Shown: positions 28,633 through 29,837 of the stretch, piece after piece | Numbering within the stretch: position 1 is the first letter of the stretch | How the letters are laid out: every line of letters starts with the position of its first letter | From: Deltaproteobacteria bacterium | Lineage (GTDB): Bacteria > Desulfobacterota > Desulfomonilia > Desulfomonilales > Desulfomonilaceae | Assembly (NCBI GenBank): GCA_016875095.1 | Contig: VGSG01000016.1 | Span: forward strand, 1 to 54,242 | Direction of reading: 5' to 3' | Length of the DNA stretch: 54,242 nt | The notes under the pieces: model-generated | Seen by the model: only the letters and a program-made list of their open reading frames with translations | Databases searched by the model: none | What the model was told of the DNA's origin: nothing | Position numbers and translations under genes: made by a program

Positions 28633-28736
28633 TTGCGGTTCGACGGCGAGAACGTTCGCGCGACTTTGCACATTTACTTTGCGTCTTCCGGAGAGATCGG
28701 ATCGTTACTGAGCCTCGGACACGCGAGGAGCTTTCC

Positions 28737-29837
28737 GTGACCGATCGCGTCAAAAGAAAGCTGAGCGCAAAACAGATCCTCGGCGATATTCGCTTGGGAA
28801 TGGACCCTCCCGGACTGAAGCGCAAGTATGGTCTCTCGGACAAAGCGTTTGAATCCATTTACAGGAAACTGTCGGAAGCGGGATTACTGACGGAATACGA
28901 ATTACGTCAATTGAAACCTATGCGCCGTTCGTTTGACGCTGCGCATGAAACGCCCGGTGCAACCCAGTGGCGTTGCCCGGCGTGTAATGCGCCGCAGCCG
29001 GCGGAAATGGGTGAGTGTCCCGCGTGCGGAGTCGTGGCGGCCAAGTTTGTCGCGCTCCAGGAGGAAGCGCGTCTTGCCACGGGCGCCGCGCCTCCTTCTG
29101 TTCTGGATGCTGCTCCAAGCCACGGGAAAGGCTGGACGAAGGTAGTTGTGGGCATATTGGTTTTCGCGCTTATCGGGGGAGCGATAGTCGTTTGGGCCAC
29201 TTATCGGGCAAAAGAGAAACCCCGTATTGCTCAACTGGATCTGGAAAGCGAATCTTCTCTGGAGACCTCGGGTGAAGCGGGCCACGATCGGGAGAACACG
29301 GGCGAGCTGGAAACCTCGAGCGTAGATTCCCTCGGCGATAACACAGCGGAAAGTCCAGGCGGGATCGTTTGGCCGAGTCCAAATGTCGCGGCCCGGCCGG
29401 AGCCGCTTCCTCCGATCGTCGAACCGCCCGCCCCGACGGTCGACCCGCATGCTCCGAGGGTTCAGCCTCCGCTGGAACCAAGCTCAGGTCCTCCTACGAC
29501 GCGCAAATATGTTACGGGCGTCTTGAGGCAGTTTTCGTCTAGCGACTTCAAAGAGGAAGTGGTCGAGGCTTCGAAAACCCATCCAGTGCTGTTTCAATTT
29601 TATAGCGATACGTGAATGCCATGCAGGCGGATGGCATCCGTCCTCAAGGAAGTGGCGAGAGAGACAAAAGGCCGGGCGGTTATAGGATTGGTCATGGTAT
29701 CGGACCGGGAATTGACGCGTGCCTTCGCAATTACGAGGATACCGGCGATTTTCGTGGTGCGCAACGCGGAGGTGACGGCATCGTTCTTAGGAGTGGTCCC
29801 GAAAGGGCGGATAGAACAAGCTTTGAGGGGCTCCTGA
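28737..29837 (+). CDS. Probable selenoprotein: zinc ribbon, membrane helix and thioredoxin-like domain with a UxxC site
   Basis: The frame runs 366 codons if the TGA at 29613-29615 is read as selenocysteine (residue 293). Order: a helical N-terminal module (KLSAKQILGDIRLGMDPPGL), a zinc ribbon (Cys80, 83, 94, 97), one membrane helix (133-154), a Pro/Glu-rich linker (165-255) and a thioredoxin-like domain (270-366). In that domain PVLFQFYSDT-U-MPC-RRM lines up with the WCGPC site, Sec replacing the first, attacking Cys. The frame after TGA stays in register and has the cis-Pro stretch RIPAIFVV. A SECIS-like hairpin follows the TGA. The GTG at 28737 has GAGGAG before it. The redox partner is unknown, and which side of the membrane the domain faces is unclear. 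A nonsense mutation is the alternative. Confidence 0.78.
29616..29646 (+). promoter_or_regulatory. Candidate bacterial SECIS element
   Basis: Directly after the in-frame TGA, GGCGGAT (29626-29632) pairs with ATCCGTC (29636-29642) around a GGC loop; one pair is G-U. The loop starts 17 nt after the TGA and begins with G, as expected for bacterial SECIS hairpins (the fdhF loop is about 18 nt away). A competing perfect 7-bp stem, ATGCCAT (29616-29622) with ATGGCAT (29631-29637), is also possible, flanked by ACG (29610-29612) and CGT. Which fold forms needs testing. Confidence 0.6.

Follow-up and report, generated by a model that had tools for sequence, protein, structure and literature searches.

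The window, a stretch of 54,242 nucleotides that is the entire contig C16 of a 4.7 Mb genome in 202 contigs, carries a gene in which codon 293, a UGA, is almost certainly read as selenocysteine (Sec), a reading drawn from the conserved sequence and the presence of the decoding machinery. The overall explanation that best fits the evidence, and which we hold with considerable confidence, is that the product is a UGA-decoded, membrane-anchored Sec-thioredoxin, probably a periplasmic reductase, that would derive from a duplicated Cys thioredoxin.

An in-frame TGA at the active site of a thioredoxin domain

The initial annotation had claimed that the frame starting at 28737 is broken only by a TGA, that a thioredoxin C-terminal half continues behind it without any shift, and that the TGA falls on the first Cys of a CxxC motif to give U-M-P-C, and all three points were confirmed. 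The frame comprises 367 codons with two TGAs, the terminal one and codon 293 as the sole internal one, and its GTG start is aligned with the starts of the orthologs (Table 1). Past codon 293 the unshifted frame reads MPCRRMASVL...RIPAIFVV, and when the TGA was translated as Cys the Thioredoxin model PF00085 was matched with 49.2 bits against a gathering score of 23.5 bits. The proposed plan of a zinc ribbon, one membrane helix and a thioredoxin domain also held: the protein consists, in this order, of a predicted helical module (residues 5-60), the zinc ribbon, a single membrane helix, a linker and the thioredoxin domain.

Table 1. Coordinates of the candidate selenoprotein gene and its features in the window
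Feature	Position (strand)	Remarks
Shine-Dalgarno-like GAGGAG	28725..28730 (+)	6 nt 5' of GTG start; direct sequence reading
Candidate selenoprotein gene	28737..29837 (+)	366 aa including one Sec, GTG start, TGA terminator
N-terminal ~55-aa module KxSAKQ...DIRxGM...KYGLS	28749..28916 (+)	predicted helical; without Pfam name
Zinc ribbon CxxC-x10-CxxC	28974..29030 (+)	four Cys invariant 5/5; weak zinc-ribbon Pfam/NCBIfam matches
Single transmembrane helix, residues 136-154	29142..29198 (+)	mean hydropathy 2.76; model helix 133-158
Linker, acidic then Pro-rich	29205..29504 (+)	poor conservation, 15-30% pairwise; ~100 residues
Thioredoxin domain, residues 265-363	29529..29825 (+)	PF00085 E 5.7e-13; PDB thioredoxins E down to 1.9e-12
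In-frame TGA, probable Sec293, first position of UxxC	29613..29615 (+)	TGA in 5/5 orthologs
Cys296 of UMPC	29622..29624 (+)	presumed resolving residue; invariant in 5/5
SECIS-like hairpin GGCGGAU[GGC]AUCCGUC	29626..29642 (+)	starts 10 nt past TGA; loop 17 nt past TGA
Pro336 codon	29742..29744 (+)	presumed cis-Pro of the thioredoxin fold; invariant in 5/5

The TGA and the frame behind it are conserved in five genomes

The full-length protein was found in 5 of the 18 genomes of the family, the window's included; these represent four genera, G011 and G012 belonging to the same one. Every ortholog has exactly one internal TGA, in the identical column in all five, the active-site motifs being UMPC, UPAC, UPPC, UGPC and UGPC, and each matches PF00085. 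Conservation is strongest in the thioredoxin part, where pairwise identity amounts to 64-78% before U (mean 71.9%) and 44-70% after U (mean 62.1%). The corresponding means are 48.5% in the N-terminal module, 54.1% across the zinc ribbon and 21.3% along the linker.

This conservation bears on the reading that translation truly ends at the TGA, or that the gene is a pseudogene remnant with a decaying downstream frame. Open runs of at least 70 codons behind a TGA-ended ORF of at least 200 aa are indeed common in the window (8/32), as this reading would have it; however, the TGA, the frame and nearly the end point are common to 5/5 genomes whose proteins are 41-45% identical to that of the window, and the thioredoxin half past the TGA is conserved, which makes a real stop extremely improbable. 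The open run and the hairpin described below are each non-significant alone; the case rests on conservation, and what rises above chance is the homology across the TGA together with the conservation of the TGA in five genomes.

The distribution of the full-length protein appears narrow in our searches. The full profile matched 3 of 395 phylum genomes at E 1e-45 among the best 5 candidates per genome, all of them within the family, and by the same measure the 390 phylum genomes outside the family gave no full-length relative. A profile of the thioredoxin domain only matched 5/395 phylum genomes at E 1e-27 (best 12 candidates per genome) and 18/42 class genomes at E 1e-18, again all within the family; at the latter threshold the remaining 24 class genomes yielded no comparable thioredoxin domain. 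A wider scan of genome contigs, using an active-site pattern built from the query motif, yielded three loci, namely one full-length relative (L059) and two short thioredoxin matches. L059, from a MAG labelled Desulfomonile tiedjei, is on the same contig as the G014 copy and was dropped from the counts. Desulfomonile is classified in the Desulfomonilaceae (Desulfomonilia), to which the window would also belong, judging by the family assignment that it shares. A scan of viral contigs, in which the pattern had Cys at the TGA, gave no relatives; because this active-site pattern back-translates Cys at the TGA, the contig scans have reduced power for TGA forms. A full-length Cys ortholog did not turn up in the family, class, phylum and contig searches.

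The hairpin behind the TGA is conserved at the DNA level

The bacterial SECIS model, as outlined in parts of PMC13188914, has a stem of 4-16 bp, a loop of 3-9 nt with a G within its first two positions, a distance of 16-37 nt from the TGA, and a minimum free energy of at most -7.5 kcal/mol. We found this geometry in 6/6 sequences, that is, the five orthologs and a short Sec form described below, with 7-8 bp, a GGC or GGA loop and a distance of 17 nt, and UGGCA matches the favoured N1-G-G-N-N2 form in which N1 is paired with N2. Simple-stem energies range from -5.9 to -9.8 kcal/mol, with -7.3 for the window and G012 and -5.9 for G014, so that 3/6 miss the value of -7.5 kcal/mol; the energy of the 41-nt window segment is -12.4 kcal/mol. 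Whole-segment folding compared with shuffles gave z = -1.13 and -0.88, and a hairpin at least as strong occurs at 103 of the 1748 TGAs of the window, both strands considered, for which reason we rejected the hairpin as stand-alone proof of Sec. Thus, of the initial annotation's claim of a SECIS-like hairpin, the GGC loop, its distance from the TGA and the geometry stand, and the element is conserved, but taken alone it is weak evidence.

The hairpin is kept at the DNA level beyond amino-acid need. The stretch CGGATGGCATCCGT is the same in all five orthologs. Among the 71 degenerate columns with an invariant amino acid, the codon is unchanged across 5/5 genomes in five, three of which fall within the hairpin (R298, A300, S301). 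Over residues 297-303, codon pairs are identical in 36/40 cases versus 258/670 elsewhere, and a value this high arose in 0 of 20,000 resamplings based on the codon usage of each gene. When the short Sec form is included, 42/42 pair cells are standard and the stem is 100% paired in 6/6. In G014 one stem pair is A-U instead of G-C, a change of both partners, and two pairs differ in one partner; covariation of the stem is weak alone, as the observed value was reached in 78 of 500 shuffles. Rfam models gave no match to the window at their gathering scores, and no tRNA was found in it. When a model of the hairpin region was run against the window's genome, only this gene appeared at E up to 1 among the best 150 of 965 candidates.

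The genome encodes the selenocysteine machinery

Two checks proposed along with the Sec reading, a search for the Sec machinery and an inspection of homologs, both came out in its favour. In the window's genome we found a full-length SelB (391.7 bits versus a cut-off of 242.25), a tRNA-Sec with anticodon UCA (70.6 bits, gathering score 47), SelA (E 1.8e-178) and SelD (E 4.6e-105). SelB and tRNA-Sec were searched for in this genome, SelA and SelD in the 18 family genomes, where they lie above cut-off in 18/18 and 16/18, respectively. A second match of the tRNA-Sec model above cut-off is a tRNA-Trp. The selD of the window's genome (L100, G000:C7:103502-104416) is itself interrupted by an in-frame TGA, which gives U-A-A-K; UxxK is listed as the motif of selenoprotein SelD in the cited parts of PMC13188914. 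This selD is thus an apparent selenoprotein gene too and independently suggests that the genome uses Sec. As to the homologs, they continue beyond the site, with TGA in 5/5 full-length proteins and Cys in the short paralog of 18/18 genomes.

The same data speak to the proposal that the TGA is decoded as another residue (Trp, Gly or by near-cognate suppression), for which nothing beyond the open frame can be cited. Against it stand the full Sec machinery of the genome, the Cys that relatives have at that column, and the terminators of the orthologs, which are TGA in 4/5 and TAG in 1/5, meaning that TGA keeps its stop meaning and is not recoded throughout; we therefore give this proposal hardly any weight. 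Sec, on the other hand, is supported by the TGA of the orthologs, the frozen codons of the hairpin and the machinery.

Short Cys and Sec thioredoxins in the same family

A short thioredoxin with WCxPC is present in 18/18 family genomes (e.g. G000:C2:20179-20487), reading DFYADWCLPCR in the window's own genome, and a hydrophobic helix precedes the thioredoxin domain in 12/12 of those examined. Across the 18 genomes its thioredoxin domain is 41-51% identical to that of the window protein, and the EVVEAS and S-F-x-G stretches are largely common to both; however, it has no TGA, and its frames of 114-206 aa are too small for the N-terminal module or the zinc ribbon. In one of the 18 genomes, G014, there is also a short Sec-thioredoxin (C48:17205-17513; TGA at L095:3296-3298), which has UPTC, the same hairpin and a membrane helix like the window's, and a thioredoxin domain 43% identical to it, but in which the N-terminal module and zinc ribbon were not seen. 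Cys and Sec membrane-anchored thioredoxins thus occur within the same genome in 5/18 cases. Directly before the active site, where the Cys paralogs have W, the long Sec proteins have T and the short Sec form has L, a difference that makes classical thioredoxin activity uncertain. In a tree of 27 rows the Sec and Cys rows were split on one branch (95/94); owing to long branches and a midpoint root, the tree is silent on the direction of change.

Two further observations concern the Cys forms. In the window's genome the Cys paralog (region of L028:2342-3157 and L028:3174-3764) lies about 8 kb from selA and adjoins an ORF that resembles what we take to be YqeB of selenium-dependent molybdenum hydroxylase systems; the distance between paralog and selA is about 68 kb in G013 and megabases in G011. 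QFYSDTCMPC, the Cys counterpart of the window's QFYSDTUMPC, occurs in short thioredoxins at L060:4001-4273 and L061:4001-4321 in MAGs labelled Epsilonproteobacteria and Deltaproteobacteria, a match that is biased because one search pattern was made from the window motif.

Topology and the N-terminal module

The thioredoxin domain is likely periplasmic, a placement we favour since no export signal is apparent in the N-terminal part that carries the ribbon. In the reversed topology, the anchor would keep the Sec-thioredoxin domain on the cytoplasmic side of the membrane, and the helix flanks of the long Sec proteins agree with this, the C-terminal side being more positive in 5/5, against a periplasmic thioredoxin. 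This arrangement would, however, need the export of a zinc-ribbon N-terminus of about 130 residues without a visible signal peptide, and among 12 short Cys paralogs (with putative starts) 7 carry more positive charge on the N-terminal flank, 4 the same on both flanks and 1 less on the N-terminal one, which leans toward a thioredoxin outside the cytoplasm; we regard the reversed topology as improbable.

The N-terminal module of the window protein gave no Pfam model above cut-off. An AlphaFold model, made from two sequences and poor as a whole (mean pLDDT 48.1), has helices at residues 11-58 with block pLDDT of 67-81. The same genome holds 20 further matches to this module in different proteins, one of them at the N-terminus of a membrane protein that looks adenylate-cyclase-like by sequence reading (L025:1595-3952). 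The stretch of about 55 aa is apparently an unnamed, expanded domain.

The recurrence of this predicted helical module at 20 other places, including the adenylate-cyclase-like protein, and a RodZ-type layout weakly matched by 2/5 members (best E 0.0042) point to a transmembrane redox sensor in place of a general reductase, in which the Sec-thioredoxin would sense oxidants or substrates in the periplasm, with the module and ribbon relaying the signal in the cytoplasm. On the other hand, the window protein has no DNA-binding or signalling Pfam domain at cut-off, and one other member gives only a weak GntR match (E 0.044). Moreover, no neighbour gene shared between genomes was seen in the flanks, where ORFs were mechanically picked and ten were Pfam-scanned (the G012 contig is 3.6 kb), and so no partner is indicated. 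We consider such a sensor unlikely. The broader idea of a transmembrane selenium redox switch, with the state of the periplasmic Sec-thioredoxin relayed to the cytoplasmic ribbon and helical module so that the protein signals and does not only catalyse, is likewise rather doubtful.

Comparison with catalogued selenoproteins

Thioredoxin with UxxC (PF00085) is an established selenoprotein family in the cited parts of PMC13188914, PMC9312934 and PMC1794560, the first of these being a 2026 inventory of 119 selenoprotein families and subfamilies. The window protein resembles this family in PF00085, in Sec as the first residue of UxxC and in the SECIS-like hairpin just downstream. By description, however, the thioredoxin selenoproteins are small proteins in these parts of PMC13188914, whereas the window protein adds an anchor, the N-terminal module, the ribbon and the linker of about 100 residues. 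A zinc-ribbon membrane thioredoxin was not found among the entries catalogued in the parts of the inventory considered here, and the terms 'zinc ribbon' and 'transmembrane' are absent from its main text (PMC13188914). Neither on selenoproteins of Desulfomonile or Desulfomonilaceae nor on bacterial zinc-ribbon thioredoxin selenoproteins was a paper found in the open-licence literature.

Of the 13 NCBIfam matches of the window protein, none reached its cut-off. The protein attained 50.7 of the 96.8 bits of the stand-alone thioredoxin TIGR01068, from which it differs in being multidomain. In its thioredoxin part it was weakly matched by PDO_seleno_TRX TIGR02187 (19.8 versus a cut-off of 185 bits) and by TsoB NF045694 (13.9 versus 805 bits). 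A weak likeness to protein DG (NF049953) is confined to the zinc ribbon (4/5 members, best E 0.0083), with the window protein at 15.3 versus 130 bits and thus below cut-off; the Sec motif of protein DG, given as GUxG in the cited parts of PMC13188914, is unlike the UxxC of the window. As thioredoxin UxxC is already catalogued, the novelty lies in the architecture and not in Sec within a thioredoxin. The initial annotation's view of an unfamiliar selenoprotein plan thus stands for the membrane-anchored zinc-ribbon thioredoxin, apparently an uncatalogued architecture, but not for the UxxC thioredoxin, already listed in these parts of PMC13188914.

Discussion

We propose that the hairpin right behind UGA 293, together with SelB and tRNA-Sec, would direct Sec insertion. 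The one transmembrane helix would anchor the product, with the helical module and zinc ribbon before it and the flexible linker and UxxC thioredoxin after it. A function as a thiol-disulfide reductase seems rather likely; Sec would then be the attacking nucleophile and Cys296 the resolving residue, and the protein would most likely act on envelope proteins or small molecules that carry disulfides or related oxidised thiols. The thioredoxin domain, as a probably periplasmic one, would most likely be re-reduced by a CcdA/DsbD-type electron donor of the genome. DsbD_TM matches were found in 5/5 genomes with the gene, including four matches in the window's genome, but also in 7/13 genomes without it, so that they allow this mechanism and do not mark it. 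The gene probably goes back to a duplicate of the membrane-anchored Cys thioredoxin of the family in which Sec replaced Cys and to which the zinc-ribbon module was fused, if the change ran in that direction.

In summary, there is strong comparative support for adding this protein to the known selenoprotein architectures. An annotation taking the TGA as a stop would truncate the protein halfway through the active site. As Cys and Sec versions are found in the same genomes, why Sec replaces Cys is directly testable in this family.
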